Positions 2,344 through 63,545 of a stretch of DNA of 64,000 nucleotides are shown piece after piece. The stretch comes from Lepidostoma basale. Its lineage: Eukaryota; Arthropoda; Insecta; Trichoptera; Lepidostomatidae. Where the stretch lies: NCBI GenBank assembly GCA_022606425.2, contig JAHDVF020000001.1, positions 992,001 through 1,056,000 of the forward strand. Reading direction: 5' to 3'. Each line of letters begins with the position of its first letter. The first letter of the stretch is position 1. The translations under genes and the position numbers were made by a program. The notes beneath the pieces are model-generated. The model was not told the DNA's origin and did not search any database. It saw only the letters and a list, made by a program, of their open reading frames with translations.

Positions 2344-3330
2344 TTTGTCACTTTTGATAAAATTGTAAATATTAGCAAAACAAATTCTACCTTAACACGA
2401 ATGAAGGTGAGGGCAGTCTTAGAATTTTTTTTTTTTTTGGGATGAAGGAAGTAATTTTTTGCTTTTTTTTTATTACGAAATATTGAGAACACTTCAATGG
2501 AGGATTACAATTTTTTTTATAATATTAGGGTCCATAGGTTTTAAGAAAATCAACTTTAAATTGGCAGTGGAAACTCAATTGACCACATGGCAACGCGACG
2601 GTTAAATACACTTATTTTTGCTTACAAATTGAGGGGTGGGCTTCTTTCAAAATATTTGTGACCAGGCTGCTTACAATTATGAAATACATGGGTACCCGAC
2701 GTGAGACAAAACAAATTTTAGAATCAATAGAACAGTATCAAGGGGTTCCGAAAACAGATTTTTTTATATGGGTTTGAAAGTATTTAATAGCTTGCCGTCA
2801 CGAAGGACTCAGATAATGTTCACAAATTCCGCAACCAATGTATAGTGTACGTCCGGTCACATTTTTGAGTTTTAAAGTTATTAATTTTTTTTCTCGTTGT
2901 CAAATTTCTTCTTTATGTGTTTTGCGCCTAATTGCTATTTTTAAATTTATTTTTATTATAAATTTAACTATTATTTATTTAAAAATGTCATATACTAGTT
3001 GTAAGAATTATGAAATTTTACTAAATAAAGAAACTAAATAAAGAAATATTTTTAAAAAAAGTTGGTCGCTACCCTTAAGTGGCATTGGGCGGAACACGTC
3101 GCTCGTGACACAAGTGAAAAGTGGACAAGGCGAATGCTGTACTGATGCCCGTGTCATTGAGATACCGCCCTTTACTGGGAGTCATCGCTAGCTCGCTCAC
3201 CAAGATGAATCATTTATAAAAGTTCAAGCGAGTCGGATAATTTCTCCCGCGGGTCCGTCGTTCGCCATCCCTGGTAGAGACCATAGGTTCCCAAGGCTTG
3301 TAATTTTTTTCTGCTTAGTGTGCAGCATCA
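2344..3330. other. Unassigned AT-rich DNA
   Basis: I see no recognisable gene or repeat. Poly-T runs occur at about 2428-2440 and 2463-2470. The short open frames are not convincing. Confidence 0.4.
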
Positions 3331-3965
3331 TCAGGTGTTACAATAAACTTAAAAATAGTTTATTGTAACACCTGGTGATGCCAACATCGGTTGGCGAAAC
3401 AGCTGTCGCGACCCTCAATTAATTAAAAGAAATTGTGATACCATAACAGTGTTTTAAATTTTAACAATGTTTGTATGGAAGTGAAGCTTGGAGTTGGCAG
3501 AAGAAGGATGAAAGAAGAATTAATGCCATAGAAATTAGGTCACTAAGAAGGATGTGCGGAAAAACAAAGTATAATAGAATATCTAATGATGAAGAAAGAA
3601 AGGAATGTAAAGCGGATGAATGCGTGATAAATAAAATCAAGAAAGGGTCACTAAGATGGTTTGGACACATGGAACGAATGGATGAGGGAAGAATGGTTAA
3701 AAAGATATATAAAAGTAGTGTGAATGGAAAAAGAAGTCGAAGAAGGCCAAGGAAAACATAACTAAATTAATTAATTACTGAAAGGCGGCCATGTTCGAAG
3801 TAGAAACAATCGACGAGCGTGCATGTCACGATGTGTGAATATAGAAGAGTCGCGAGAGTTATGTCAAGATAGAACAATGTGGCGATCCATCCTCTGGCGT
3901 GATAGTTAGTTAGTTAGTAAGTTTTTAATGTTGAAGTATCCTAGTGTTTCGGCCAAAACAATGGA
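3330..3965 (+). repeat. Family A foldback with a plus-strand hammerhead-like motif, interrupted by LINE-A
   Basis: The right arm reads: core CTGGTGA (3372-3378), extra T, helix II GCCAA/TTGGC (3380-3384 with 3391-3395), GAA (3396-3398), palindrome ACAGCTGT (3399-3406), C3407 at the cleavage position, then GCGAC. The only core difference from CUGANGA is A6 to G. The left arm keeps just the antisense TCATCAG end (about 3336-3342). The element's far flank (GTTTCGGCCAAAAC, 3947-3960) lies beyond the LINE-A copy at 3463-3918, so the LINE landed inside this element. Confidence 0.7.
3463..3918 (+). mobile_element. LINE-A 3' end, 5'-truncated
   Basis: This is the C-terminal tail of a non-LTR retrotransposon ORF2. 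It has MYGSEAWSWQKKDE, the RSLRRMCGKT block, the GSLRWFGHMERMDE block and the KRSRRRPRKT block. The last part is degraded, and some of the usual SAYP...GETA end is deleted before the tail. The copy ends in TTAGTTAGTTAG. The clade is probably RTE-like but is not resolved by eye. Confidence 0.85.
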
Positions 3966-4411
3966 CTATTTATTAATGTGATGTAAAAAAGTATATTTAA
4001 TAGGTTTATTTTCAAAATTCGCACGGACCACCTTTTACGTTAACGACAGTTCAGACTACAGACTACAGCGTAGCGTGCTGTGGAAGGATAGAAAGGAGGG
4101 CGGTCGAGTAGGCGGAAAGCATTACCTGTTGATGTGAAATACTTACCTCGGGTAATGTGTTTCCCGCTTACCTTAGCTGCTGGCATTTCTCAATAACCTT
4201 ATGGCCAGGAGCTAAGATACATTCTACATTTGACTCGGATTGATTTACGTTTATTTTCACTTTCGACACGAATTAACAACTCGGACCCGTACCTGTAATC
4301 TAAAATACCTGTTATCAATCCTAGTCTATTTCGTATAATGGAATATTATTTATCGACTAAAAGACGATATTATTCCTTATATATGAAAAAAACTGCATTT
4401 TGCGTTATACA
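3966..4411. other. Unassigned DNA
   Basis: I see no gene or recognisable repeat in this stretch. Confidence 0.4.
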
Positions 4412-4447
4412 TATTTGATTATTTATTTATAAACTGTTAAATTTAAA

Positions 4448-4523
4448 CAGAACAGTGTGGCGTTCCATTCTTTCTGCCTACCCCTCCGGGGAGACGGCGT
4501 GATGGTTAGTTAGTTAGTTAGTT
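4448..4523 (+). mobile_element. LINE-A 3' terminal fragment
   Basis: Only the last codons are present: the W-R-S-I-L-S-A-Y-P block, a CCCC-TCCG-GGG hairpin, the GGCGTGATGG stop region, and a (TTAG)n tail. It lies inside the left arm of the family A foldback. Confidence 0.85.
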
Positions 4524-4532
4524 TAAATTTAA

Positions 4533-4984
4533 AAATAGCTTGGAGCTGGCAAAAGAAGGATGAAAGCAGGATAAACGCCGTAGAAATGTGATCACTAAGA
4601 AGAATGTGCGGGAAAAGTTGTATGATAGAATACAGAACGATGAAATAAGAAAGAAATGACTGCATCATGGATAAAATTAAAAAAGGGTCCATGAGATGGT
4701 TTGGACATATGGAACGAATGGATGAGAGTAGAATGGTTAAAAAGTTGTACACAAGCAGCGTGAGTGGGAAAAGAAGCCGAGGACGACCGAGGAAAACATG
4801 GCATGACCAAATTAATAAATTACGAAAAGGCGGTCACATTCGAAATCGGAATAATCGACGTGCGTGCATGGTGCGATGTATGATTGTAGAGGAAGCCCGA
4901 GAGGTATGCCAGGACAGAGCATTGTGGCGATCCATCCTCTCTGCCTACCCCTCCGGAGAAATGGCCTAATGGTTAATTAGTTAG
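4533..4984 (+). mobile_element. LINE-A 3' end, 5'-truncated
   Basis: The copy runs from the AWSWQKKDE-like block to WRSILSAYPSGEMA and a TTAATTAGTTAG tail. The 4667-4969 part is open (MDKIKKGSMRWFGHMERMDE, SRGRPRKTWHDQI, ACMVRCM, VCQDRALWRS). Upstream there are several frame breaks and a deletion. It sits next to another LINE-A tail, so two independent insertions hit the same arm. Confidence 0.88.
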
Positions 4985-5549
4985 TTTTTGGTTAAATTTT
5001 AAAAAAAACTTTGTTTTGTGTATTACAATTGTATTTTTATTTTACGCCACTGTTTCGTCTAACTATGTTGACATCATCAGGTGTTACAATGTCAAATTTG
5101 TCAATGTCAAATGTATCAAATGTCAAATTTTCGTGATTTTACGAACCTTTATGTGTATTTGTTACTATGTCAATTTAAATAATTTCTTTGATATAACTGA
5201 AAAAAAAATCTGTAAAGAACTTCAAAATTATATCAAAGATATTATTAAAATTGACATAGGAACAAATACATACATAGGTTGACGAAACAGCTGTCGCGTA
5301 AAATAAAAATACTATTGTGAAACATAAAACAAAGTTTTTTTAATTTAACAGTTTATAATGTTAAAGTATCATAGTGTTTCGGCCAAAACAATGGATTGTT
5401 TATTTTATATATTTGATTATTTATTATTACGTTTGTTGAATGTACACATTTATATAAATATACTCGTATAATCTATTGAAATGGCATCGAGATAATTAAT
5501 CTTGTGTAATTGATAAAATAAACAATTGCTTAATAAATAAAAAAATTCA

Positions 5550-5760
5550 ACTATAGTTTATGGGAATGACATGTTTCGCCTTTCTAATGCATTATTAAAT
5601 GTTGATATAAACACTTGATAAAACCTTAGAAAGGCGAAACAAGTCATTCTCTTAAACCATATTAAAATTTTTAGAAAACAGGCGTTTTAATTGGTAATAA
5701 TTATTTAAAATGGAGTTTTACTTCATTGTTCCAGAAACAATCAATATTTTATATCCCTTG
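5550..5760. repeat. Family D foldback with two opposed hammerhead-like motifs
   Basis: The minus-strand motif (5561-5605) has GAAACATGTC preceded by an AAGGC stem strand. The plus-strand motif (5610-5655) has TTGATAA (5616-5622), a CCTT-AGA-AAGG helix II, GAA, ACAAGT and C. Outside the arms lie TTCTAGAAAACAG-like ends and a conserved flank, ATGGAGTTTTAC (about 5710-5721), that recurs after other D copies. Confidence 0.65.
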
Positions 5761-6225
5761 ACGTAGTATTACAGTACATTTTTTTAACAATCGTGTATTA
5801 ATCAGAGTATTTAATTAATTATTTCGATTCAAATCTCCGTTTTATGAATATTTGATAATTAAAAAAAATTATCTTGTCATAATAATCTCATAAATTGTCA
5901 TGCGGACGACAACATCATCGTGATTAAATATTTGATCAATTTTTATTCTATTTTTTATTTGTATAATACTGATGTTTATGTTTAATTCAATAATACGAGT
6001 ATTTTACATATGTCATCTGGTGTTCAATATAACAAGTTTGTGAAGAGTTTTAAGTTTTAATTTAAGACTCAATATAAAATCCTTTAAATTATATTTATAA
6101 AAAATAAAATGAAACTGTGAAGAAATGAACAGTCAATAGCTACATAAATGTTTTTTTTAACTTTCGTATGAAGCACTTAATTTTTGGTGTGACATTATTA
6201 AATATAATAATAATACAGTGTAATA
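5761..6225. other. Unassigned AT-rich DNA
   Basis: Very AT-rich. I see no gene or repeat family. Confidence 0.4.
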
Positions 6226-6229
6226 TTTG

Positions 6230-6412
6230 TATCTAAACCACTTTATTTGTTATCAACACCAACCGGTTTCGCTCCCGCCGGAGTTTCATCAGGGTACAGA
6301 TAATATACTATCTTAAGTAATTAGTATATTATGTTACCCTGGTGAAGCTCTGGCGGGAGCGAAACCGGTTGGTGTTAATAACAAATAAAGTGGTTTAGAA
6401 AGAAATATTACA
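6230..6412. repeat. Family B foldback with two opposed hammerhead-like motifs
   Basis: Right, plus strand: CTGGTGA (6339-6345), extra A, helix II GCTC/GAGC (6347-6350 with 6357-6360), GAA 6361-6363, ACCGGT 6364-6369, T6370, then GGTG. Helix I pairs TACC (6335-6338) with GGTG (6371-6374). Left, minus strand: the complement of 6286-6292 reads CTGATGA, followed by an extra A, CTCC/GGAG, GAA and ACCGGT. The arms are about 70 bp and nearly complementary over their whole length. Confidence 0.78.
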
Positions 6413-6639
6413 AGTGTTTATTATTATCATATAAATAAATGTTTATGGGTTATTATTTATTTATTATATATTTTTATAAATTATTTTTAATGTAAAATTT
6501 ACCGACGACGTTCACAATATTAATAAAGGCAAGCATCCATCATCATCACTTGCCATTTACAACAGTTTTATTTTCTATAACATACGGTGCATCCAAGAAG
6601 AAAGGAATATGTCAATCACTACCATATTAATTAAATGAT

Positions 6640-9229: not shown

Positions 9230-9300
9230 ATATCGTTATCCCGAAAATGAAGGTTTGATACCTTTAAACTTGTCGAGAAAAATAATATTTAAGGTAAAAA
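9230..9300 (+). repeat. Family C hammerhead-like element, decayed
   Basis: CCGAAAATGAAGG, a 7-nt loop, then CCTTTAAACTTGTCGAGAAAAATAA. It keeps helix II and the GTCGAGAAA strand but has lost the GAAAC box. Confidence 0.5.
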
Positions 9301-10034: not shown

Positions 10035-10275
10035 ATTCTTGATTGATGGTTGCGGTTTTAATTTTGTAAAACTCCATTATATTATATAATAAATGGATAC
10101 TAAAAACTAGATTACTTTTTGGGTTTACATTGATTTATTTATGTACAAAAATATGTACACAATAGTGACATTTTTGTTTTCGCTTGAGAGGGCATTCTCA
10201 AACTAAAAAAAACATTCTCAAACTACGATGAAAATTTTGTTTGAGAATGCCCACGTAAGGCGAAATAAATTTGTA
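10035..10275. repeat. Family E foldback with hammerhead-like arms
   Basis: The right arm (10238-10275) reads TTTGAGAATGCCCACG, a GGC stem strand, GAA, ATAAATTTGT and AC. The left arm has the antisense CGCTTGAGAGGGCATTCTCAAAC. The left flank shares GATGGTTG and ACTCCATTA with the E copy at 47.9-48.1 kb. Confidence 0.55.
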
Positions 10276-10299
10276 ACTTTTATTTATATAATTAATATG

Positions 10300-10440
10300 A
10301 ATGAAAACGTCAGTTTTCTAGAAGTTTTATTATATTTTATGGGAATGACATGTTTCACCCTTCTAAAGTCTTATCAAATGTGACATTAATAATGTAATAT
10401 GGAGTTTTACGTCATTGTTCAAGAAACAACAAATATTGTT
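10300..10440 (-). repeat. Family D element, single minus-strand motif
   Basis: On the minus strand: TTGATAA (complement of 10371-10377), CTTT/AAGG helix II, GTGAAACATGTC and ATTCCC. The conserved flank ATGGAGTTTTACG follows at about 10394. Confidence 0.6.
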
Positions 10441-12489: not shown

Positions 12490-13135
12490 TGTCCAAACCG
12501 AAAATAAAATAGTTAAAAAAAAAACATTTCTTTATATTTTATTATCCCTCCAAGTTAAGCAACGTTACGGTTAGAATTGGAATTTATTTAAAACCAGTAT
12601 CCTCGTTTTAAACTGGAGAGTCCGTTTTTTTTTTTCGACTGCTCATCGTATTGGGTAACTTGCACAACTAGAAATATCGGACAAATTATTACGTCCGATA
12701 AACTCTGTGTGATGTAACACCAATCGATCGAAATTGGCACATTGAACGGCCGACACTTCTTTCTTATTACCATCCGTGGCACGGTTCAGTTTCGGTCCGG
12801 CGGACGGTCGGTGGCGATGTTTCTCGGTTACTTAATTCATTGAACTTGTGGAGATAAATTACTTCTCTAGTCAACGGATTCTTATGTAACCAAATTAGCC
12901 GCCGGCTAGATATTGTGAATGAATCGGAATTTAGTTTAATGATTTATACCTATAACCCACTTTGAAGCAATCAGCAGAATACCTTCTTTAATGATCTCAA
13001 TATTATTAACTTTAACATCGTCTTGTCTTGTATTAAAATGTTTTCAGGCTTATATAAATTATCTATTTATATCAACAAAAATGTAATGAAAATAATTCCG
13101 TCAATACCAAAATAAATAACTGTTAAAATTAAAAC
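12490..13135. other. Unassigned DNA
   Basis: I see no gene or repeat. 12750-12920 is slightly GC-richer. Confidence 0.4.
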
Positions 13136-13139
13136 GCTG

Positions 13140-13250
13140 TAATGATATCACAATATTTTTTATTTTACGGTGACAGCTGTTTCGCCAACCGAAATTTAAA
13201 AAAATAATAAAAAATGTGATACCCCATAACAGCGTTTAAATTTTAACATT
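13140..13250 (-). repeat. Family A fragment
   Basis: Antisense GACAGCTGTTTCGCCAACC gives TTGGC-GAA-ACAGCTGT-C on the minus strand. The CUGAUGA half is missing. Confidence 0.55.
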
Positions 13251-13253
13251 ATT

Positions 13254-13464
13254 ACTGTTAAAATTTAAAACACTGTCATAATATCACAATTTATTTTTAT
13301 TCACTGAGAGTGTCGTCACAACTGTTTCGTCAGCAGATGTTGGCATCATCAGATGTTACAATAAACTCAGTTTACTATAACACCAAACAGCTGTCGCGAC
13401 ACTCTCAGTGAATAAAAAGAAATTGTGATATTATAACAGTGTTTTAAATTTTAACATTAATCTA
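13254..13464. repeat. Family A foldback, left arm with a complete minus-strand motif
   Basis: The ends form a long inverted repeat (AAAATTTAAAACACTGT... against ...ACAGTGTTTTAAATTTT). Minus strand: CTGATGA (complement of 13346-13352), extra T, GCCAA with a decayed partner, GAAACAG. The right arm has an internal deletion from CUGAUGA through helix II, leaving AAACAGCTGTCGCGACAC. Confidence 0.7.
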
Positions 13465-14495: not shown

Positions 14496-14514
14496 AAAAA
14501 AATTGTTTGTGTAT

Positions 14515-14600
14515 AGCCCTATTGAAGCTCGCTACAGAGTGAAACCGGTTGGCCAAACTTATTAAAATTAAAATGGTTATCACAAAGAAAAAAAACTGTT
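14515..14600 (+). repeat. Family B element, single plus-strand motif, decayed
   Basis: CCCTATTGAAGCTC, a GAGT stem strand, then GAAACCGGTTGG. The core is mutated (CTATTGA). Confidence 0.55.
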
Positions 14601-16094: not shown

Positions 16095-16335
16095 GATGAC
16101 CTACGTGGCAGAGTGGAAACTGCTCTGACTGCCATACCGAAGGTCCCGGGTTTGATTCCCGGTGATGGCAGTGTGATTGTCACACTCTCTTTGATCTGTT
16201 GTAGAGTTCACTTCATAATAAAAAGGCGATAGATTAGCTACCAGCATGTCATAAGAATCAATATAATAGCTCAAACAACTTATATACAGTAATTGGGTTC
16301 AAACGACTCGTTGCATACAAAAAAAACAAAGTAAT
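16095..16335 (+). mobile_element. tRNA-derived SINE, near full length
   Basis: The A box (GTGGCAGAGTGG), B box (GGTTTGATTCC), body hairpin AGTGTGA-TTG-TCACACT, the GCGATAGATTAGCTACC body and the 3' part CAGTAATTGGGTTCAAACGA are all present. A-rich tail. Confidence 0.88.
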
Positions 16336-17205: not shown

Positions 17206-17412
17206 GGACATGTCTACTTTCTTAAATTTTATAAGAATGACATGTTTCGCCTTGCTAAGGCTTTATCAAACGTTTATTAATGAATTATCATTAAATAATG
17301 AGAGAAAAAATATTATGCAAAATTTCTTTACTATTACATATATATTTAGTGTGCTTCCACTTGTGTTTATCGTGGACCGATTTCGGCAGCTTGCTGTCAT
17401 CTTCTGGTGCCT
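17206..17412 (-). repeat. Family D motif followed by a family F motif, minus strand
   Basis: D (17219-17280): TTGATAA (complement of 17263-17269), extra A, GCCTT/AAGGC helix II, GAA, ACATGT, C, ATTC. F (17340-17412): GAAGATGA, CAGC-AA-GCTG, CC, GAA, ATCGGT, C, CACG. F fits the general scheme less well. Confidence 0.55.
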
Positions 17413-17759: not shown

Positions 17760-19065
17760 AATGAGGAATCGAAGAAAGAGGAAGAAGAATTCGTTATTGC
17801 TTTCACAACGTATACGTATTTTCTTTGGAAGTTTCTATAAAATATCAGACGTTTTTTCTCGTATTATTTTGTTTTATTATTATTACAATGTACACGCAGT
17901 TTCTTTGGATGTTTTGAAACAAGTGAAAACTGCTTATAATCTGAAAATTCGTAAGAAACACGCCTACTTATATAAAAAAATATCCTTCTTCAGTGTCGAG
18001 CCAGAATCTAGTCAGAGCTCGGTACCCAGTACACGGCTGATTGACTTCCGCAATATCCGCGTTCCGACCTTGGAAGTTTGCTTCCGCGTTGATTGTCTGC
18101 TCAGCTCGCCTTACACGCTTCAAACTGCTTAATTATACGTATTATGCAAATCAAACAACCAGTTGCCGACACAAAGTGCGCTCGCACCGAGACGATAATT
18201 TTACAAACAGCCAGGAAAACAGCATCAACTCACTCAAATCCACATATTAATAATACGTTCGTTATTCACGAACTCAAGTGTAGAAAAATACCTTTTTGCA
18301 TTGAGCACTATTTTGAAATTATTTCAATTATATACACCACTGTGAGATTCATAGTGTTCGTCAACACTACTTAATGCGTGATTCATAAACAAGGAAAATT
18401 TTCAAGCGTCACGTGGAAAATCTAAAGAGATTATTACTTTATTGGGGGCAATAGCTAAAGATTCGTTTTTGGTTAACAGGAAATCACTTTTGTCAATACG
18501 GCACACTTTATTTGGTCATAAAATACGAAACGAGAAAAGTATTATAATTTTATTATTATTGTCTTGGTATAATAGACAATAATTTTATGAGAAATCATTT
18601 TAATACCGTAAAGTAAAAAAAATTTAAAGTATTTTTAAATAAAATACATGTTTTTTATTATTATTATTATTATTATTGTTGAGGGTAACAAACAGCAATT
18701 ACAGTATATGAATATAAACACACAGCGACAACAAAACAAGGCCAATTACAAGCTACCACAAATATTATATAACAACTGACATAAGGTTAAATATATAAGA
18801 AGAATGAAGTAACACTTTGATAAGTTAAAGAGAAAACTAGTAGTATTAGTAATAGTGAATAATTAAAGAAGAAAAAAAAGAAAAAGACAAGAAAAGAAAA
18901 GGTAGAGTAACTAGTTTCATTCGCCCCGAAGGGTTGCTCCAACCATTTTTTTAAAATCACTTTCATTAAGATGGAGCACATCGATGTTATGAAAGCACTT
19001 ATTGTACATGTATATTTCTTGTATATACGCCATACTTTGTGTTGTTATGATGGTTTTTTTCTATT
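17760..19065. other. Unassigned DNA with a (TTA)n run
   Basis: The longest frame (17761-18132, 123 codons) has no recognisable domain and overlaps others in all phases. (TTA)n lies at about 18655-18677 and may be a LINE tail. I see no supportable gene. Confidence 0.4.
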
Positions 19066-19069
19066 TTTC

Positions 19070-19310
19070 TTTTTTATACACTTTGTATACACAACACTTA
19101 TATTAAAAAAATAAAATTATATAGACATGTTTCGGACAAACAGTCCTTCTTCATCTTTTTCAAACCATTTAACATCTGTCAGATCATGCAAACAACAACA
19201 ATTTTATAATATTTTTATAAATATGTATCTTTACTGAAGATGGACTGTTTGTCCGAAACATGTCCATATAATATTTTTTTTTTTAATATAAGTGCTGTCG
19301 ATTTCTCCAA
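19070..19310. repeat. Family H foldback with two opposed hammerhead-like motifs
   Basis: Right, plus strand: CTGAAGA (19234-19240; position 7 may be any base in hammerheads), T19241, helix II GGAC/GTCC (19242-19245 with 19251-19254), GAA 19255-19257, ACATGT 19258-19263, C19264. ATATG (19221-19225) can pair with CATAT (19265-19269). Left, minus strand: ATGAAGA, extra A, GGAC/GTCC, GAA, ACATGT, C (complement of about 19132-19160). Confidence 0.75.
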
Positions 19311-20559: not shown

Positions 20560-20775
20560 TTTAGGCCTCTTCTAATTTCTTCTTAACTCTTATAAACTCT
20601 TATTAATTCTTATAAACTTTTATAAACTCTTATCAACTCTTATAAACTCTTATAAACTCTTATAAACTCTTATAAACTCTTATAAACTCTTATAAACTCT
20701 TATAAACTCATATAAACTCTTATAAACTCTTCTAAACTCTTTTTAAAGTTTTCTTAACTCTTCTAAACTCTTCCA
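20560..20775. repeat. 10-bp minisatellite
   Basis: The unit is TCTTATAAAC with small variants, roughly twenty copies in tandem. It lies inside LINE-H sequence. Confidence 0.92.
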
Positions 20776-27849: not shown

Positions 27850-28195
27850 AAATATTAAGAAACATGTTTCGGTCCAAAAATTTAAGATATAGTGAGATGG
27901 AGTAGGCAGACAAGACAATTCTGATGGGACCACATCGAGAGAATGGATCCAGCAAGAATTCCTTAGATCGTGATGCACGAGACTCCAGAGGGCCGTCGAC
28001 CACCAGCACGACCACCAAAGAAGAATAGAAGGCTGGTCGTATTCATCACAGGAAGAAAGTTGATATCCTGCATAATCAGTAGAAGAAGAATAAGAAGAAG
28101 TTTCGGTACACAGAAGCCCTTCATCAGTTTAGTAGTAAATAATATCAATTTCTTACAACTGTAGTAGTATATTGGTGTATTAATAAAGTTGTATA
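27850..28195 (-). repeat. Family H-related foldback split by a LINE-D fragment
   Basis: The 3' half AAACATGTTTCGGTCC lies at about 27862-27877. Its partner GTTTCGGTACACAGAAGCCC and TTCATCAG at 28100-28126 is antisense to CTGATGA, extra A, GG..CC, GAA, ACTTCT, T. LINE-D occupies 27880-28092. Confidence 0.5.
27880..28092 (+). mobile_element. LINE-D 3' end fragment
   Basis: IVMHETPEGRRPPARPPKK is readable at 27970-28026. The copy ends with AGAAGAAGAATAAGAAG. Confidence 0.68.
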
Positions 28196-29270: not shown

Positions 29271-29721
29271 TTATGTTATGATATTGTAGGTGCAACGCAC
29301 GTGTGTAAAATTGTGAGATATTCTAACTGATGTTAGCGTTATTTCTTATATTCATCGATTTAGTACTCACTAACTATAATAAAATAGCATATCATTATTC
29401 GCTTCACGTACAGGGTAATATATAGAAAACTGACATCATGATTGAATTTCGCAGGGTTGTAGTAAAAAATAGCAATTATTAACAACTTAGAGAAAAACAG
29501 TGTTCAAACTTTTGAGCGTAGATTATATTATATGAGTAATTTTGCAATTGCTATCAACCTTCAGACGGCTCAGGTGTTAGCACGTCCTTCCACTGATGGG
29601 TTCAAATCTCGGAACTGCCATTATTTCTAAGTAATTATAAAAATATACCATTTTATAAGATTATTAATAATTTTAAATAATCTTATAAATAATAATTAAA
29701 TAAAACGATGTTTTTTTTTAT

Positions 29722-29815
29722 ATTTTCACTTTTGTCTTTACTTCGACAGCGAGCCTGGCGAAACCGGTCGCTGTCGAAATAAAGACAAAGTTGGAAGTAG
29801 TTAAAAAGACTTTTT
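29722..29815 (+). repeat. Family G hairpin, hammerhead-like with the CUGAUGA box missing
   Basis: CGACAGC (29744-29750), GA, GCC-T-GGC, GAA, ACCGGT, C, GCTGTCG (29769-29775). The outer stem runs on through TCTTTA and TAAAGA. Everything of a hammerhead except the first core strand can be aligned. The sister copy is at 61831-61945. Confidence 0.6.
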
Positions 29816-29984
29816 TTTTTTTTAATTATTATTTAAAATGAACTTCCATCAAGAGATTTCAGTAAAATCATTTGATTACGAGTATCTTAATCTTATAAAA
29901 CCGAACACTCTTCTTCTAGTTCCGTTTACAGACCAGTATATAAAAAAAGTTTATTTTTTTATTTGTTACTAACATATTTTAAAT

Positions 29985-30215
29985 ATTCCATTGTTTTGGC
30001 CAAAATACTATGATACCTTGACATTTTAAACTGTTAAATTAAGTTAAGGAACAAATACACATAACGCTTCGAAAAATCACGAAAATTTTACATTTGATAT
30101 ATTATTGTAACACTTGATGATGTCAACATAGGTTGACGAAACAGCTGTCGCGTGAAATAGAATACAATTGTGATACATAAAACAAAGTTTTTTAATTAAA
30201 CAGTTTAATATATTA
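29985..30215 (+). repeat. Family A element with a plus-strand hammerhead-like motif and extended helix I
   Basis: TTGATGA (30114-30120), T30121, helix II GTCAA/TTGAC (30122-30126 with 30133-30137; loop CATAGG), GAA 30138-30140, ACAGCTGT 30141-30148, C30149. Helix I: ACAC (30110-30113) faces GCGT (30150-30153) with one A.C mismatch. After a 9-nt bulge, ATTGTA (30104-30109) pairs perfectly with TACAAT (30163-30168). The left arm has lost its antisense motif. The core has U at position 3. Confidence 0.72.
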
Positions 30216-31006: not shown

Positions 31007-31192
31007 ACGACCTTCGTGGCCGAGTGGTAAGTGCATTGACTGCCACCCCGAAGGTTCCAAGTTCGATTCCCGGCGAGGGCAGTGTGATTGTCACACTGTC
31101 TTTGGTCTGATGTTAGAATTCACGTGACATTAAAACGGCGATAGATTAGCTACCTATCATATGTCACGAGAATCACTATAATAGCTATAATA
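31007..31192 (+). mobile_element. tRNA-derived SINE
   Basis: GACCTTCGTGGCCGAGTGGTAAG head, B box GTTCGATTCC, body hairpin, GCGATAGATTAGCTACCTAT. The 3' end differs from the other copies (ends near ATAGCTATAATA). Confidence 0.85.
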
Positions 31193-31264: not shown

Positions 31265-31785
31265 ATAATTAATGTTTTCAAGAATTTTTATTGTAATTTA
31301 TGGAAATGACATGTTTCGCCCGTCTAAGGCATTATCGAATGTTTTAAACGACATTTGATAGAACCAATCTACCTAAGGTAATGCCCGTGGGCAGGGCAAT
31401 AATCCTTCAAACCGTATCTCTTCGTATGTGGACAAATTTCTCGATTATGAAGCTATCCTCAGAAAGCATAATCTCTTATATATTGTATTAAAATGATATT
31501 TATTTTCTTGTTTTTCTAATTGTAATTCATTGTTTTTATATCTCTTCTTAGTTCAAAATTGTTTTAATTGTCTTATGTTTTATCTTACTGTATTGTTCCA
31601 AATGACATATTTTTATTTAATTGTTATTAATAAAATATTTAAATCATAAACGCCTTAGAAAAGTGTCTGTTCATGTTTTTTATAATAAATTTAATTGAAT
31701 CGAATTAATAATGCCTTAGACAGACGAAACATGTGATTCCTATAAATTATAATAAAACTTCTAGAAAACAGACTTTTTCATTAAC
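31265..31785. repeat. Family D foldback with about 270 bp of other DNA in the loop
   Basis: Left, minus strand (about 31300-31345): GCGAAACATGTC with an AT-TATCG core. Right, plus strand (31704-31735): TTAATAA, extra T, GCCTT, AGACG, GAA-type box CGAAACATGTG, ATTCC. The outer arms end in TTCTAGAAAACAG. Unassigned DNA (31375-31640) separates the arms. Confidence 0.58.
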
Positions 31786-35797: not shown

Positions 35798-35985
35798 CGC
35801 TTTTATTTCACTTCTGAGTTTTATTTTCTCTACAAGTTTCGAAGGTTTTACACCTTCATTATCTAAAATCTATCTCTTTTTTTCTTTTTTTATACACTTC
35901 GTTCATACAACACTTACATACATTTAAAAATTTTAAATTACATAGACATGTTTCGGACAACCAGTCCTTCTTCAGTGATACATAT
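35798..35985 (-). repeat. Family C then family H hammerhead-like motifs, minus strand
   Basis: C (35825-35875): GATAATGAAGG, CCTTC, GAA, ACTTGT, A, GAGAAAATAAAA. H (35940-35985): CTGAAGA (complement of about 35970-35976), extra A, GGAC/GTCC, GAA, ACATGT, C, TATGTAAT. The H core is intact; the C core has decayed. Confidence 0.68.
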
Positions 35986-36014: not shown

Positions 36015-36275
<261 letters not shown>

Positions 36276-40258: not shown

Positions 40259-40259
40259 A

Positions 40260-40984: not shown

Positions 40985-41185
40985 CATTGCAAATAATTGC
41001 AAATAATTGCAAATAATTGTAAATAATTGCAAATAATGGCAAATAATGGCAAATAATTGCAAATAATTGCAAATAATTGCTAATAATTACAAATAATTGC
41101 AAATAGTTGCAAATAATTGCAATTATTTGCAAATAATTACAAATAATTGCAAATAGTTGCAAATAATTGCAATTATTTGCAAAAA
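40985..41185. repeat. 10-bp minisatellite
   Basis: GCAAATAATT units in tandem, about twenty, with variants GGCAAATAAT and GCAAATAGTT. Some units near 41115-41130 and 41170-41180 read in the inverse sense (GCAATTATTTGC). Confidence 0.92.
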
Positions 41186-41194
41186 ATAAAAAGA

Positions 41195-41310
41195 TCTACA
41201 ACATGTTTCAGAGGTAACATCCTCCATCCTCGAGTATAAATATTAAGAGAGGATGGGGGCACCTCCGGAATATGTTGTGAATAATATTTTTATTTTGTAA
41301 AAATTAACAC
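41195..41310. repeat. Family J foldback, hammerhead-like but divergent
   Basis: Minus strand: CGAGGAT, GGAGG, loop, CCTC, TGAAACATGTTGTAG (complement of about 41208-41246). Plus strand: GAGGATGGGGGCACCTCCG, GAATATGTTGTG (about 41256-41285). Helix II and the ACATGT-like palindrome are there, but the C3-U4 positions do not match. Confidence 0.45.
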
Positions 41311-44555: not shown

Positions 44556-44690
44556 TGCCTTCTTCATTGGTTTTAAATACTAAGTATGTTTTTTTTTATA
44601 ATTGATCATGAAACAATTAATAAAAAGATAGAAAATAAAAATAAATAAAAATATATCTTAGAAGACTATTTACATTATTTCAAAATAAAA

Positions 44691-44868
44691 TCTTTGTATT
44701 TAACCACGGTATGGTTATTATAATTGATGCCAACTAGTTTCGCTTGGACCCGAGCTTCATCGGGGCAGTATAACAACAACAGTTGTTTTACTGCCCTGAT
44801 GAAGCTCGGATCCAAGCGAAACTAGTTGGCATCAATTATAATAACCATACCGTGGTTAAATACAAAGT
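44691..44868. repeat. Family B foldback, almost perfect, with two opposed hammerhead-like motifs
   Basis: Arms of about 75 bp. Plus strand: CTGATGA (44796-44802), A44803, helix II GCT/AGC (44804-44806 with 44815-44817), GAA 44818-44820, ACTAGT 44821-44826, T44827. Helix I TGCC (44792-44795) pairs with GGCA (44828-44831). Minus strand: CCGATGA (complement of 44758-44764), A, GCT/AGC, GAA, ACTAGT, T, GGCATC. The arms are so similar that the copy must be young or recently homogenised. Confidence 0.82.
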
Positions 44869-44964
44869 TTTTTTATTTATTTTATATTTTTAATGTCTAA
44901 CCACAAATGAATTCATATGAAAATTTATATATTATTTTTCCTTTCTTAAATTGATTAATAGTGT

Positions 44965-45045
44965 GAAAAGACAGTGGTCTAAGGGATAGAACGCTTGGCT
45001 CCTGATCCAGGGGACTTGGGTTCAAGCCTGGACACGACCAGATTC
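44965..45045 (+). mobile_element. tRNA-like sequence, probably a SINE head of another family
   Basis: TGGTCTAAGGGATAGAACG resembles an A box region and GGGTTCAAGCCTGG a B box. No proper acceptor stem is seen, so it is unlikely to be a functional tRNA. Confidence 0.4.
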
Positions 45046-45588
45046 CTTCTTCATAATAATGAGCTATTTTCTGCTCACATTGAAGATTGTTATAATAAAT
45101 TCTAATATCATTAAATTAAATCCTTGGTATTAGTCTTTTTATAAAAAATAATAAAAAAATTAGTTGACTCAGCACCAGTACCCGGGCATTTGACATAGAA
45201 GTTGGGTTCAGATCGTTACACTAATAACCCACTGTATATATAATACAATAATATTATATACACATATATAAACTGCACTTCAACAACACTACACAGCCGA
45301 GGACACATCACGTTAGCTGAGAGCACCTAACAAGACATAGCTTTCCCGAATAAATCAACTATGTATCCGCGAATCTCGGTTAACTCGGTATTCCGAGAAA
45401 GCGGAACATATTTATTTCTTCACGGTTAATGAGCGGCTTTAGGGTCCTCTGTAAACACTTCTGGTATATCACAACTAACTTGTGCACTGTGATATCTAAA
45501 TATTATAGAACATAACGAGAATAATCTTACTGAATGTTGATCTTAAAGCTCACGGTGGAATTCCATAATGACGAATGTTTTATGAATC
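45046..45588. other. Unassigned DNA
   Basis: I see no gene or repeat family. Confidence 0.35.
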
Positions 45589-45589
45589 A

Positions 45590-45740
45590 AAACACTTTTT
45601 TTGCACTTATACTCGATATGTTTCGAAGGATTTACGCCTTCATCATCGGAAGAACGATATAAACTTGTGTATATCGTTCTCCCGGTGATGAAGGTGTAAA
45701 GCAAAAGTGGAAAAAACAGTATTTTAATTTATATAAAAAT
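45590..45740. repeat. Family C foldback; left arm has a complete minus-strand motif
   Basis: Minus: CCGATGA (complement of 45643-45649), extra T, GAAGG/CCTTC helix II, GAA, ACATAT, C, GAG. The plus right arm (about 45679-45700) keeps CCGGTGATGAAGGTGTAAA but lost the GAAAC half. AAAAGTGGAAAAAACAGTAT is the common C flank. Confidence 0.7.
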
Positions 45741-52409: not shown

Positions 52410-52985
52410 AGGTGTTTCATTTTCAGCATACCTGGAATAAAATCAACCTTTACCCCCAATGTTTACGATTTTTGGACAAATATTATAATTATCACAATGC
52501 ATATTAGTTCTAGAGGTAATAAATCTACAAATATTTCAATAAATGAGATTCCCCGCGTTTGAGAACCTTTGCCTGAGACTGCTTTCAAAAATATCACACA
52601 TTGAAGTGTGAAGGAACCGATCCACAGTTCTCGAGGAACTATTATCCTAGTGTATTAAAATCGGAGTTAGCTGGTTTTTAGCCAACAATGCGGATTCTTC
52701 CTCTAGTTTACCTTCTCCTTGTTCCTTGTATCGTGTCCTTCCTTTTGTGGTGGCGATACGAGCCTTTACCTCAACATTCTCCACAATGGACCCGATCAGA
52801 ATGTGCACTTAGAATGATTACAACTCAAATAATATAAAAAATATCGGCAATTTATTTATATTACAATTTTCGTTGGAATAAGTTTATAAACAAGTACATT
52901 GTACAACTAAAATTTTCGAACAATTAAATGTATGCTTTTCTACAATCGGTTTAAAATTAATGTTGATACAAACTTATTTTAAATT
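52410..52985. other. Unassigned DNA
   Basis: I see nothing recognisable. Confidence 0.35.
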
Positions 52986-52989
52986 AAGT

Positions 52990-53240
52990 AAAAAATTTAA
53001 ACTGTTAAATTGAATAACTTTGTTTTTGGTATCACAATTGTATTTTATTTTACGCAACAGCTGTTTCATCAACCTATGTTGACATTATCAGATAGGTTGA
53101 TAGATGTCAACATAGGTTGATGAAACAGCTGTCGCGTAAAATAAAAAAATACAATTCGGATACAAAGAACAAAGTTACTTAATTTAAAATGTTAAGTTAT
53201 CATAGTGTTTCGGCCAAAACAATAGACTATTTAAGTAAAA
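52990..53240. repeat. Family A foldback
   Basis: Left, minus: CTGATAA, T, GTCAA/TTGAT, GAA, ACAGCTGT, T, GCGTAAAATA (complement of about 53053-53092). Right arm: the CUGAUGA half is lost, GATGAAACAGCTGTCGCG kept (about 53118-53135). Flank GTTTCGGCCAAAAC at about 53206-53219. Confidence 0.65.
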
Positions 53241-53449
53241 ATTAATAACTTAAGATTTTTTTTCTTTATGTATGCCTGTCAGTCAGTGATTCGTTTAGTA
53301 AACATAATTCAGTTTGTTAAATTGATTTAACTAATTTTATATTACTAAAACCTAATCTTATTCTAACCTTACTAAAGCGCTTTACTAAATACAAGCAAAT
53401 TTAGGGAAATACAAAAAAAAATGCTTTCTCGAGTAATTGAATAATTGAT

Positions 53450-57529: not shown

Positions 57530-57640
57530 CATATATGTTTAGAAAGATTCTTGACGTTCTTCAGTGTAAAAATGTATACACCGAAGATGGATGAGAACCA
57601 CCCGAAACATGTTTTTGACGAGTGTGAGAGTACGAGCTGA
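57530..57640. repeat. Family H foldback, partly decayed
   Basis: Left, minus: CTGAAGA, A, CGTCAAG (complement of about 57550-57564). Right, plus: CCGAAGA (57581-57587), T, GG..CC, GAA, ACATGT, T (about 57604-57613). Confidence 0.55.
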
Positions 57641-58340: not shown

Positions 58341-58344
58341 CAAA

Positions 58345-58990: not shown

Positions 58991-58994
58991 TTTT

Positions 58995-59265: not shown

Positions 59266-59334
59266 TGTTTCTGTAAATTTTTATAACTTTATTAAATTAA
59301 ATGAATAAACAGTTACTTAAAATTATATCATCTA

Positions 59335-59580
59335 AAAATTACAGAGTTTAAAATCATTATTACTGTTAAAATTTAAAACACTGTTATAATATCACAATTT
59401 ATTTTTATTCACTGCGAGTGTCGCGACAGCTGTTTCGCCAACCAATGTTGGCATCATCAGGTGTTAAAATAAACTTATTTTAACTAGTTAATTGTAACAC
59501 CTGATGATGCCAGCATCGACTGGCGAAACAGCTGTCTCGACACTTTCAGTTAATAAAAGAAATTGTGATATCACTTCAAG
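59335..59580. repeat. Family A foldback with two opposed hammerhead-like motifs, both cores intact
   Basis: Plus: CTGATGA (59501-59507), T59508, helix II GCCAG/CTGGC (59509-59513 with 59520-59524), GAA 59525-59527, ACAGCTGT 59528-59535, C59536. Minus: CTGATGA (complement of 59454-59460), T, GCCAA/TTGGC, GAA, ACAGCTGT, C, GCGACAC. The helix II variants (CAG/CTG and CAA/TTG) covary. Outer arms match AAAATTTAAAACACTG and TTATTTTTATTCACTG as in 13254-13464. Confidence 0.83.
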
Positions 59581-59685: not shown

Positions 59686-59775
59686 TATTCGCAGGATAGG
59701 GAAGAGTTTACCAGAGTGATCTCCAACGTCGGGGGGACCTGACAGGGGACTTCAAGAAGAAGAAGAAAACCAAGA
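59686..59775 (+). mobile_element. LINE-B 3' terminal fragment
   Basis: GAGGAGCTATTCGCAGGATA, GAGTGATCTCCAACGTCGGG, GGACTTCAAGAAGAAGAAG. Confidence 0.75.
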
Positions 59776-59779
59776 AAAT

Positions 59780-60230: not shown

Positions 60231-60234
60231 AAAC

Positions 60235-60305
60235 TAACTAACTAACTTACCCTCACGCCGTCTCTCCGAAGGGGAAGGCATTCATACATCGTGTCATGCA
60301 CGCTA
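60235..60305 (-). mobile_element. LINE-A 3' terminal fragment with internal deletion, minus strand
   Basis: ACTAACTAACTAACTTACCC, GCCGTCTCTCCGAAGGGGAA, then directly CATACATCGTGTCATGCACG (RACMTRCM block). Confidence 0.82.
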
Positions 60306-60314
60306 ATTCTTGTT

Positions 60315-60480
60315 TAGATAATCTATTGTTTTGGCAGAAACAATTTGATATTTCAACATTATTAACTGTTGAAGAATAGTTGGAGTAGTAGTTGGTAGTA
60401 ATACAGCATTGGTTAGCGAAACAGCTATCGCAAGAAATTGTGATCAATTGTGAAATTTATTAAATTACAAAGTTTTTTTT
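60315..60480 (+). repeat. Family A fragment
   Basis: Left flank CTATTGTTTTGGCAGAAACA; right GCATTGGTTAGCGAAACAGC, TATCGCAAGAAATTGTGAT. The CUGAUGA half is missing. Confidence 0.5.
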
Positions 60481-60514
60481 TAAACATTTACTAATTATTG
60501 TAATAAATAACCAT

Positions 60515-60615
60515 CTAAATATCGACTATAAACTATAACTATAAACATCGACTATAAACTGTGTCTACATCGACTATAAACTATAGACTATAAACATCGA
60601 CTATAAACTGTGTCT
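60515..60615. repeat. Minisatellite
   Basis: ATCGACTATAAACT units with variants (TATAACTATAAAC, GTGTCTAC), about six. Confidence 0.85.
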
Positions 60616-60965
60616 ACTTGTTCACAAGGCCTTACATGGACGAGCGCCCCACTACCTCACAGAACTTTGCAAGCTGACAAATTTGAACCCTCGGCGGTCA
60701 ACTCTACGATCCTCGAAGGAAGAAGCAACACACAAACTTCTCGTCCCGCGGCGCCAAGGAGCTTCAAACTTCGCAGATCGCGAGACCGACGGCGTGGAAC
60801 AGGCTGCCCTACAATATCCGCAATCAAGACGACGAAGAAGTGTTCAGAAGCTCTCTTAAAACTTTTCTTTTTAAGAGAAGCTTTCTGGACGTTGAGCGCC
60901 CTTGAAGTGAATCTTTCACAAAAATGGCGCTATATAAATCATCATTATCATCATCATCATCATCT
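60605..60965 (+). mobile_element. LINE-C' 3' end
   Basis: LLVHKALHGRAPHYLTELCK, LTNLNPRRSTLRSS, a frameshift, ETDGVEQAALQYPQ-type out-of-frame reading, FKRSFLDVERP, stop, AAATGGCGCTATATAAATC and an (ATC)n tail. Confidence 0.85.
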
Positions 60966-60969
60966 AAAG

Positions 60970-61530
60970 AACGTAAACAAATATATAAATAATAACTGTG
61001 AATAATTAGAAAATAATGTTTCGGAATTAGAAAACTAGGACGAATTTTTTTTCTTATACACTTAATTCAAAAATATCAGAAGTAATTAATAATTCCTTCT
61101 GTATCACGTGATTGCTTTAAACACTGCCCCTACCACCTTCGAAACCCGTCTAATTACGTACACATAATTACTTTTTAAACTTAAATATTACATTTCTTAA
61201 ACCTTACAAATTAATCAACTAGCTTTTAAATTCAGAAGCCTTTAAATTATAATTATTAAAAAGATTTGTTACACTGTTAACATATTATAATCTAAAAGAT
61301 GGGCCGGACTAACCTGTTATGACTGTTGAAGGAGGAAACCTTTAATGTTCTTCCACGTCTATATACCTATAGTATGTATTTATCATCCCGGTCTGCAACA
61401 GGTTTCATTAGTTAATGGCGTCTTCAAGATATCTGATAGAGATTATTAATTGCCTTTAATAATCACTCGTATTTTTAAACCATAATGTTTAAAAACAAAA
61501 CAAACTTTTTAAGATAATTTTTTTTTTTTT
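60970..61530. other. Unassigned DNA
   Basis: I see nothing recognisable; poly-T at about 61520-61536. Confidence 0.35.
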
Positions 61531-61534
61531 TTTT

Positions 61535-61772
61535 TTACGTATACAACAGGTCGCTTGAACCCAATTACAGTATACAATTTGTTTTTAAGCTGATATATTG
61601 ATTCTCGTGACATGTGACAGGTAGCCAATCTATCGCCATTTTATTGTCACGAGAATACTACGCCAGACCAAAGACAGTGTGACAATCACACTGCCATCGC
61701 CGGGAATCGAACCCAGAACCTTCGGAATGGGAATCAGAGCTCTTACCACTCTGCCACGAAGGTCGTCAATTT
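61535..61772 (-). mobile_element. tRNA-derived SINE, best full-length copy, minus strand
   Basis: All parts are present: head GACGACCTTCGTGGCAGAGT, B box GGTTCGATTCC, hairpin AGTGTGA-TTG-TCACACT, body, and end CCTGTTGTATACGTAAAAAA. Pol III transcription from the internal boxes is expected from the family. Confidence 0.92.
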
Positions 61773-61830
61773 GATGGTGTTACTGAAATCTCTCGATGAA
61801 AATTTATTTTGAATATTAATGAAATAAACC

Positions 61831-61945
61831 GATGTTTTTTTTAAATAACTTCTTCCACTTTTGTCTTTATTTCGACAACCAGCCTGGCGAAACCGGTCGT
61901 TGTCGAAATAAAAACAAAGGTGGATGTAGTTATTAAAAAACATCG
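61831..61945 (+). repeat. Family G hairpin, hammerhead-like with the CUGAUGA box missing
   Basis: CGACAAC (61873-61879), CA, GCC-T-GGC, GAA, ACCGGT, C, GTTGTCG. The stem pair that is G-C at 29722-29815 is A-T here. Outer inverted repeat CGATGTTTTTTTTAAATAAC against ...TTATTAAAAAACATCG. Confidence 0.62.
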
Positions 61946-61949
61946 TTAA

Positions 61950-62280
61950 ATTTAATTTTAAACAATATTTATTCTGTGAACTCGTTAAACAAGTAGAACT
62001 TACATTCAAATTTTATTTTATTTTACTATTTGCTAGTTTTTCAATCAATCTGCAAATCTAGGATTAACCTACTTATGTTTATTATATTTTCTCCTACTTG
62101 TATGCTCAAAATCTTGTACTTCTTTTTCTTCTGCTTTATTTAGGACTGTGTTCTGTTATTCCTCGGAGCCTGTTCCTGATGCTGATTTCCAAGTGCTTGC
62201 CAAATTCTCAAAATATTTAACATTTAAAAAAAATGTTTTTTTTTAATTAAATTAAAACGTAGGTACTTTTATTATTGTAT
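61950..62280. other. Unassigned AT-rich DNA
   Basis: I see nothing recognisable. Confidence 0.35.
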
Positions 62281-62284
62281 GTTT

Positions 62285-62485
62285 AGATAAATTGGAATTT
62301 GGGGAAGACTGAGAAGATGCTACTGGAGAGATCATGTGGAAAGAGCATGTTCTGAAAGAGTGATAAATATAGCCGCAAATAAAGTACCAACAGGAAATCG
62401 ACCTAAAAGATGGCGAGACAGTTGGACATCTGCATCCCAGGAAAAGTCTCCGAGAAATAACAGGACACAGTTCTAAATAAAGCAG
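62285..62485 (+). mobile_element. LINE-D-like 3' end fragment
   Basis: GRLRRCYWRDHVERACSERV-like, INIAANKVPTGNRPKRWRDS, WTSASQEKSPRNNRTQF, stop, AAGCAGAAGAAGAAAAAAAT tail. Confidence 0.68.
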
Positions 62486-62489
62486 AAGA

Positions 62490-63195
62490 AGAAAAAAATG
62501 AAATTTGGGGGTTATCTGGTATGTAGTCAAATGTTAAAAATTTTGAAATTGGAAAAATAATTATAGTTACAGCATTTTCAGCTCAATATTTATTTTAGAA
62601 AATTCAGTCAAATGATGTTGATCCTAATACAAATTAAAAGCAGATGCCCTTTACACCTTGAAAACTCTACACACTAAGAAAAATTCGAGTAACTATAAAA
62701 ATTATATGATATTTATATCACTTTACTTTTGACTTCAAATAATTTTCTAGCACTTCGTTTACTATGTATTATAATGTATGTATATTATAATACCCATATA
62801 ACTTGCACTATTTTTTCATCTTACCAAAAAGCCCTTGCTAATTTGAACACCTTTCAAGGGATGATGAAAAACTGATTAAACGATGTAAAATTGTACCCTA
62901 GAAGACGATCATTGTATGATAAATCACAAAATGCATCCCTTGTGTCTCGGGAGAGGATTCTTGACTAAAGACTTATTTCCTTGCTCAACCTTTGGACCAG
63001 CAACAAAAAACGTAACGGATTTGTATAGATTTTGCTAGTCCCAAAGATTTACTGATTTTAAAAGTCGATAAGAATTTAAAAATTGCAAACGAATAAAGTG
63101 CGGTTTCTATGAATTGTTTTTTATACATATGAAGCACTTAATTTGTGGAGCACAATTTAAAAAAAAAAAAGTAACTTGGTTTTTACATTACCTAC
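62490..63195. other. Unassigned AT-rich DNA
   Basis: I see nothing recognisable. Confidence 0.35.
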
Positions 63196-63199
63196 TTAT

Positions 63200-63260
63200 T
63201 TTGTTTTTATCGAACTAACCGGTTTCGCACCCGCCGAAATCGTCAGGGTTACAAAATATA
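63200..63260 (-). repeat. Family B element, single minus-strand motif
   Basis: CTGACGA (C at the free position 7), T, decayed helix II, GC-GAA, ACCGGT, T. Complement of about 63216-63247. Confidence 0.55.
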
Positions 63261-63464
63261 ACTGATCAATTTTATTTATTTAATTGTATTTCATTCAGTA
63301 TTGGTAACTGAACTGTATTTTTTATGTTAACTTCAATAAAGTCGATTTTTTTTATTTTAAATAAACTTACTATTGTTATCTCCCTAGTACTAGCCAAGTT
63401 AACTAACACACGTTATACATAATTCTAGATTCTTGCACTCAGTTAGTAATAATTTTGGTTAATT

Positions 63465-63545
63465 TATATCTTTCTCCCGATGCTGAAGGTGTAAGCCTTC
63501 GAAACATCTCGAGAAAAATAAACTCAAAAGTGGAAAAAACTGTGT
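63465..63545 (+). repeat. Family C element with plus-strand hammerhead-like motif and 6-bp helix I
   Basis: CCGATGC (63477-63483), T63484, GAAGG/CCTTC (63485-63489 with 63496-63500), GAA 63501-63503, ACATCT 63504-63509, C63510. TTTCTC (63471-63476) pairs perfectly with GAGAAA (63511-63516). Two core changes (U4C, A9C) probably reduce activity in this copy. Confidence 0.75.

Follow-up and report, generated by a model that had tools for sequence, protein, structure and literature searches.

Head-to-head foldback repeats with hammerhead-like motifs in Lepidostoma basale: probable short copies of Penelope-like elements

The genome of Lepidostoma basale (Insecta; Trichoptera) contains many small foldback repeats that carry a hammerhead-ribozyme-like motif, and we consider it highly probable that they are short, 5'-truncated copies of several families of Penelope-like elements (PLEs), often standing as head-to-head inverted pairs and bearing a minimal type I hammerhead. 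We studied them in an AT-rich stretch of 64,000 nt (the window: positions 992,001 to 1,056,000 of the forward strand of contig JAHDVF020000001.1, assembly GCA_022606425.2), in a sample of the remaining genome and in loci of the same genome that encode a GIY-YIG domain. Such an origin would explain a genome full of ribozyme-like foldbacks.

A sequence-only reading of the window had described about thirty motifs in at least six families with one common layout, and both the layout and the counts hold. In three copies that it named (59501+, 19234+ and 44796+) we find CTGA(T/A)GA, one base, helix II, GAA, a palindrome A...T and a non-G base. A covariance model trained on 22 window motifs (rough calibration) detects 30 motifs in the window (E ≤ 0.1, filters off), eight of them outside the training set; one match, at 28083-28137, is probably due to chance. 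At least seven families can be distinguished by sequence (A/A', B, C/E/H, G, X, Y and a further one at 57581), and homology adds an eighth family, P1, with two small foldbacks (29683-29878 and 61774-61957) whose arms are cut within the motif. A strict descriptor (a box with one mismatch at most, 3 bp or more in helix II, GAA, a palindrome as helix III and any base but G at H17) gave 11 matches on both strands, whereas 100 dinucleotide shuffles averaged 0.42 and never exceeded 2; with zero box mismatches it gave 5 matches compared to 0.05. As the first motifs had been selected by helix II and palindrome, a search with the primary sequence of the core and the genome sample described below are the cleaner evidence. 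Searching for the box followed by GAAAC yielded 22 matches in the window, 13 of which have a helix II of at least 3 bp (mean 1.46, maximum 8 in 10,000 insert shuffles), and a palindrome of at least 6 nt follows in 14.

The Rfam hammerhead families, to which the sequence-only reading had pointed, gave no match over the window at gathering score or at E ≤ 10, and none in two short stretches that were searched separately; many weak matches to Rfam microRNA families are read as long hairpins and not as microRNAs. With default filters our own model found two matches at E ≤ 5 in 577 kb of IMG/VR contigs (L021, 20.1 bits, and L053, 18.1 bits, among L001-L065), 63 of these 65 contigs having been chosen for containing part of the motif. 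No credible relative emerged when IMG/VR and GTDB contigs were scanned by pattern.

The type I order that had been proposed is supported by three helices in the corresponding arrangement, two of which, helices I and II, covary. In the alignment of the 22 motifs 81.7% of the cells are paired, compared to at most 49.2% when the alignment is slid, and changes on both sides are present at every pair of helices I and II and at the inner pair of helix III, the one pair of that helix that varies much. We then used twenty arbitrary 10-kb stretches from 13 contigs (200 kb of the 768.8-Mb assembly) as a genome sample, which holds 57 motifs at E ≤ 0.1: in an alignment fitted to the model, 81.1% of the pair cells are formed, compared to at most 47.5% when slid (helix I, 65.4%; helix II, 89.9%; helix III, 94.7%). 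Helix I does not hold equally in all families: it covaries in the C/E/H group (TGCC/GGCA, TACC/GGTG, AACC/.GTT) and in family G (TTTCTC/GAGAAA), but is weak or absent beside the core in families A and B.

The hammerhead core is numbered C3 U4 G5 A6 N7 G8 A9 / G12 A13 A14 / A15.1-U16.1, and it is present as a family consensus, not copy by copy. Among the 57 sample motifs C3 occurs 32 times, U4 51, G5 50, A6 54, G8 37, A9 55, G12 50, A13 57, A14 56, A15.1 56 and U16.1 57 times. The catalytic core is perfect in 18 of the 57 and the palindromic helix III in 39, a comparison that is biased because the model favours the palindrome region. Positions 3 and 8 form C-G in 30, U-A in 15 and U-G in four sample motifs; the test of the C3-G8 pair on the 22-motif alignment is weak when taken alone (35 of 500 shuffles score equally high). 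The double change U3/A8 preserves the pair, and it may go back to one event since 14 of the 15 sample cases belong, by reading, to family Y; in the window it is found in 6 of 30 motifs (five Y, one G). Hammerheads are not known to cleave after G at position H17, the base present in 3 of the 30 window motifs. It is very unlikely that the motif is instead an imperfect hairpin formed between the box and the 5' half of helix III. This is the lowest-energy predicted fold of the single copies 6339+ and 63477+, but across the 22 motifs such pairs form in 34.8% of the cells with no change on both sides, and A6 (54 of 57) and C15.2 (53 of 57) are both conserved yet unable to pair with each other; on the pairing counts we rejected this alternative.

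The sequence-only reading had mentioned PLEs as one known source of such hammerheads, and this pointer proved fruitful, as GIY-YIG coding sequence and the motif are linked within the same genome. Scoring 150 of 542 candidates from a genome search for GIY-YIG yielded at least 62 matches at E ≤ 0.001. In 14 of 20 fetched loci a motif lies on the same strand within 600 nt downstream of GIY-YIG (in L099 the match is weak, E 0.046), eleven of them at 354-454 nt. These eleven belong to two coding families, P1 (L100-L103, L106, L107, L114; motif CAGT-CTGTCGA-T-GCCAG..CTGGC-GAA-ACCGGT-C-GCTG) and P2 (L098, L108, L110, L112; motif with canonical core, ACAC-CTGAAGA-T-GGAG..CTCC-GAA-ACATGT-C-GTGT). No same-strand motif was found within 600 nt downstream in L104, L105, L113, L095, L096 and L097, the last three of which, judging by their letters, presumably encode UvrC-like (two) and SLX1-like (one) proteins. 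The GIY-YIG frames of 623 aa in L095 (contig C102) and 621 aa in L097 (contig C729) are, as we assume, similar to bacterial UvrC, and both contigs may be symbiont or contaminant DNA.

Locus L115 holds an autonomous P1 copy of 3,170 bp with the same layout as the short repeats: a frame with reverse transcriptase (RT) and GIY-YIG domains (1332-3575 of the locus, minus strand; 747 aa from TTG; RVT_1 E 1.2e-13, GIY-YIG E 4.8e-5) lies between inverted arms of 456 nt, which are identical at 453 of 456 positions and both contain the motif. L116 has the same 3,170-bp structure with 456-nt inverted arms, is 99.6% identical to L115, and carries GIY-YIG within an open frame of 758 aa according to the GIY-YIG search. 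The 5' flanks of both copies are TA repeats, and their 3' flanks share the tail and then diverge; because they part after the tail we take the two as separate insertions, although they may also be alleles that differ in the TA repeat. RT and GIY-YIG in one frame holds for P1, P2 being known from its GIY-YIG stretch. The named protein relatives (among 120 of 1,870 listed) are mostly from insects and include Phthorimaea, Euphydryas, Schistocerca, Diabrotica, Harmonia and Cacopsylla, which by themselves make an insect or other arthropod host likely. We infer that the window families for which no coding relative was found are PLEs as well.

The inverted pairing that had been noticed in the window is of the head-to-head kind. 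For 14 of the 30 window motifs there is a head-to-head partner that scores higher than 99% of random positions (threshold score 72), whereas a tail-to-tail partner exists for none of the 30 (highest score 61, threshold 98) and a direct downstream partner for one. In the genome sample, arm similarity identifies head-to-head partners for 25 of 57 motifs, tail-to-tail and direct downstream partners for 0 of 57 each and a direct upstream partner for one; here, as in the 14 of 30, both arms of a pair are counted. Neighbouring sample motifs at most 250 nt apart are head-to-head in 11 cases, tail-to-tail in none and direct in one; two of the 11 join different families (L086 2271/2522, L091 6138/6288), and nine are true pairs by reading. 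The arms of P1 pairs are cut at differing inner points and have coinciding outer 3' ends (lengths 1020/990, 898/272, 176/797 and 943/109). A tail follows exactly one arm in all 15 clear pairs: the 43-bp P1 tail in L100, L101, L102, L103, L115, L116, L075, L093 and both P1 pairs of the window, and the tails of three A' pairs, one B and one E pair of the window. Left out of this count were the G pair at 45649 (ambiguous tail score), L085 (tail in a separate piece) and the end pieces of L076, together with families C, Y, X and the one at 57581 and the main A pairs. Single P1 arms occur with the tail (L114) and lacking it (L106, L107). The features of the window are as follows (no strand is assigned to inverted pairs):

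3325-3466: family A inverted pair; right arm motif 3362-3419 (+), left arm broken within helix II
4996-5397: family A' inverted pair, outer limits approximate; motif 5036-5090 (-), right arm cut within helix II and with 3' tail
5556-5657: family Y inverted pair; motifs 5556-5608 (-) and 5605-5657 (+), U3/A8 core
6144-6153 and 6435-6444: 10-bp direct repeat ATAAATGTTT, candidate target-site duplication of the following E pair
6154-6434: family E inverted pair; motifs 6249-6302 (-) and 6329-6382 (+), tail on left arm only
9231-9286 (+): family G motif, degenerate; no partner found
10335-10387 (-): family Y motif; no partner found
13115-13460: two adjacent family A inverted pairs with unequal arms; motif 13305-13362 (-)
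14509-14562 (+): family E-like motif
17227-17279 (-): family Y motif
19060-19296: family B inverted pair (B19); motifs 19112-19164 (-) and 19224-19276 (+), tail on left arm only
29683-29878: family P1 inverted pair; both arms cut within the hammerhead, tail on right arm only (29836-29878; 43 bp, 43/43 identical to the L115 tail)
29975-30205: family A' inverted pair, outer limits approximate; short left arm with tail, right arm motif 30104-30161 (+) and no tail
31296-31348 (-): family Y motif, outside the training set
31696-31747 (+): family Y motif, degenerate
35819-35875 (-): family G motif with U3/A8
35933-35985 (-): family B motif with tail
41188-41243 (-): family X motif; 75% identity over 60 nt to the end of the endonuclease-coding family P2
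44682-44877: family C inverted pair (C44); 96-nt arms, 94% identity, 4 nt between them; motifs 44720-44773 (-) and 44786-44839 (+)
45579-45735: family G inverted pair by eye and alignment; motif 45603-45659 (-), right arm partial, score 59 and thus below the pairing threshold
52984-52994 and 53231-53241: 11-bp direct repeat TTAAGTAAAAA, candidate target-site duplication of the following A' pair
52995-53230: family A' inverted pair; motifs 53044-53101 (-) and, degenerate, 53092-53145 (+), tail on right arm only
57571-57625 (+): motif of a further family with CCGAAGA box; weak left partner at about 57535-57564 by eye, below the pairing threshold
59380-59573: family A inverted pair (A59); motifs 59413-59470 (-) and 59491-59548 (+)
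61774-61957: family P1 inverted pair; tail on left arm only, arms cut within the motif
63205-63256 (-): family H (C/E group) motif; 3' flank has the E tail
63467-63522 (+): family G motif; 6-bp helix I TTTCTC/GAGAAA

Below our cut-offs lies a weak inverted pair at 10155-10287 that resembles family Y and has a TTGAGAA box (T at 3, A at 8). Two arrays of 10-bp units with about 20 copies each are present at 20567-20772 and 40986-41187, the second adjoining the X-family motif. There is a long TA repeat at 36019-36267; as the P1 copies L115 and L116 also lie in or beside TA repeats, these may reflect a target preference. TRNA-like stretches at 16099-16170, 31010-31081, 44974-45081 and 61692-61763 (the last above the Rfam cut-off, two others below) are probably tRNA-derived short interspersed nuclear elements; copies of 44974-45081 (95% to L109) and 61526-61767 (99% to L114) exist elsewhere in the genome. 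Among the 142 frames scanned (of 153 with at least 70 aa in the window), Pfam-A matches are to mariner-type transposase only: a remnant at 1309-2263 (Transposase_1 E 3.2e-18), whose part 1309-1960 is 98% identical to a stretch in locus L110 and may, given this identity, be recent.

Foldback or MITE-type (miniature inverted-repeat transposable element) DNA transposons, with the hammerhead-like pattern arising by chance or for a reason at the DNA level, could account for near-perfect palindromes such as 44682-44877 and would suit the mariner transposase fragment nearby. However, the inner point of truncation varies from arm to arm whereas the outer ends are fixed, a tail stands on one arm only, and the copies L115 and L116 code for RT and GIY-YIG; on these grounds we rejected this origin, which is scarcely credible. 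Almost as improbable are metazoan retrozymes, which are small repeats in tandem that have type I hammerheads and give rise to circular RNA. They share with our repeats the type I hammerhead, the AT-richness and the short units, and their mobilisation by PLEs has been considered possible (PMC7229834, PMC7761336). The units found here are inverted pairs, though, and with direct partners for 1 of 30 motifs downstream (window) and 1 of 57 upstream (sample), the direct tandem order of retrozymes is lacking, for which reason this alternative was dropped.

For the origin of the pairs we infer two-strand target-primed reverse transcription from two RNA start sites. Reverse transcription would start on both strands of the cut target, each cDNA would be 5'-truncated and the two ends would be joined in the middle; the two start sites would lie about 43 nt apart in P1. 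The main rival keeps the PLE origin and lets the growing cDNA fold back and copy itself. Such self-priming is a serious possibility, albeit one that we hold to be rather doubtful: the Adineta vaga study prefers it as the source of head-to-head pairs whose junctions are palindromic (PMC3846280), and the arms of the C pair at 44682 are joined with 4 nt between them. On the other hand, the tail-less arm ends within a few nt of reference position 3166-3170 in six P1 pairs (L100, L101, L102, L103, L115, L116), a regular stop that favours a second start site over a random one, and in L103 three differences of the left arm occur in other pairs and are absent from the right arm. Overall the P1 arm variants are mixed, with the L101 arms sharing four differences, all seen elsewhere, and the L103 arms sharing none.

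Several observations weigh against two-strand priming or against the PLE assignment as such. In L100 the two arms share 19 of their 23/24 differences from L116, 15 of them not seen in other pairs, which fits one template copied twice, as in self-priming, at least as well as two RNAs. L076 has two P1 end pieces with tails, 46 and 63 nt long, which are turned towards each other at a distance of about 400 nt; they are motif-less, not head-to-head and uncounted. Candidate target-site duplications were found in 2 of 14 flank pairs (10 and 11 nt), in windows chosen after looking, and equally long repeats occur in 16/2000 and 3/2000 random flank pairs, respectively; the direct repeats at 13115-13460 are element sequence and were not counted. 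The flanking repeats of the type called pseudo-long terminal repeats (pLTRs) are inverted in L115 and L116, and the direct (tandem) pLTRs common in other PLEs are seen in neither copy. The coding link covers P1 and P2; family X weakly matches P2, and the other window families match neither. Finally, the putative PLE-type RT of L115 was assigned by family models and named relatives.

The sequence-only reading had noted a high density in one window. In this the window is no exception: the genome sample has a mean of 2.85 motifs per 10 kb, compared to 4.7 in the window on which the model was trained. By extrapolation the genome may contain roughly 200,000 motifs, with a wide margin. The minimal type I hammerhead with its loopless palindromic helix III would lie within about the last 110 nt of the element (optional tail excluded), and since the 3' end is usually kept and the 5' side lost, most remnants would retain the motif, which accounts for its density.

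Such abundance and regular layout bear on the open question of the ribozyme's purpose. Self-cleavage is a candidate activity of these motifs. Three lines speak against a central role of cleavage. Transcripts of the inverted pairs C44, E6 (6154-6434) and A59 are predicted to form plain hairpins (-151, -147 and -109 kcal/mol), so the hammerhead fold could form only with one arm transcribed or in other contexts. In all P1 copies read, including the young copies L115 and L116, core position 6 is U, and A6 matters for hammerhead catalysis. Arm starts are not concentrated at the cleavage site. Of 183 blast matches, 0 start there exactly and five start within 2 nt; the count contains overlapping matches to related references, and besides true insertion ends it includes places where similarity fades. 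The left arms of both window P1 pairs (29752 and 61877) are among the five, and by eye their junctions could be taken to begin right at the site. For the PLE Poseidon of Anolis carolinensis (PAc), cleavage is not necessary for insertion in vitro (PMC11167929). On the opposite side, the core sites are strongly kept overall and U3/A8 keeps the 3-8 pair.

One idea, speculative and in our view unlikely, is that the hammerhead fold is kept mainly as an RNA dimer linker, with helix III joining two element RNAs that are copied from both ends of the target. If true, it would yield head-to-head pairs, each with a single tail owing to two slightly different start sites. Cleavage would then play a secondary part or have been lost, as in young P1 copies with a changed core base, and family Y would keep the fold by its compensating U3-A8 pair. 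With its estimated 200,000 motifs in several families, two near-identical autonomous copies, head-to-head order and one tail in each clear pair, the genome is a natural data set in which core variants separate fold from catalysis, and cleavage versus dimerisation is directly testable.

The sequence-only reading also held that high density and inverted pairing were undescribed; both are explained by known behaviour of PLEs (PMC3846280, PMC7761336, PMC7229834), each ingredient is already in print, and we claim no priority. Among the titles and abstract openings listed, none brings hammerheads and inverted pLTR pairs together, a comparison that does not cover the two key papers on hammerheads. 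Penelope elements of Adineta vaga show 5' truncation, short target-site duplications and inverted, mostly head-to-head pLTRs with junction palindromes and an optional tail (31 bp) on one inverted pLTR (PMC3846280). Unlike here, their pLTRs are also direct, and the word hammerhead is absent from PMC3846280; in L. basale, solo inverted pairs are frequent, and L115 and L116 have inverted arms only. PAc likewise has a frame with RT and GIY-YIG, a hammerhead, a genomic tail and AT-rich targets, and its protein, which cuts both strands and extends them, starts reverse transcription at an internal site (PMC11167929). It is, however, tandem with the hammerhead at the start of the open reading frame, whereas the arms here are inverted and carry the hammerhead close to their outer 3' ends. 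Metazoan non-LTR (long terminal repeat) retrozymes have type I hammerheads in short AT-rich repeats too, but as tandem direct repeats with full-size hammerheads instead of inverted pairs with minimal ones (PMC7229834). Minimal hammerheads are known in PLEs and as dispersed motifs (PMC7761336, PMC7229834), and our motif is close to those described for PLEs and Terminons (Cervera and de la Pena 2014; Lunse, Weinberg and Breaker 2017; via PMC7761336 and PMC6466107), which have the type I order, a helix III that is absent or very short and thousands of dispersed copies, and for which double-hammerhead (dimer) action with a palindromic helix III has been proposed. Compared to these, as the citing papers describe them, the motifs of L. 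basale have a loopless palindromic helix III of 6-8 nt, inverted partners, which preclude a dimer in cis, and core variants, U3/A8 in family Y and in single copies of others, and U6 in P1.

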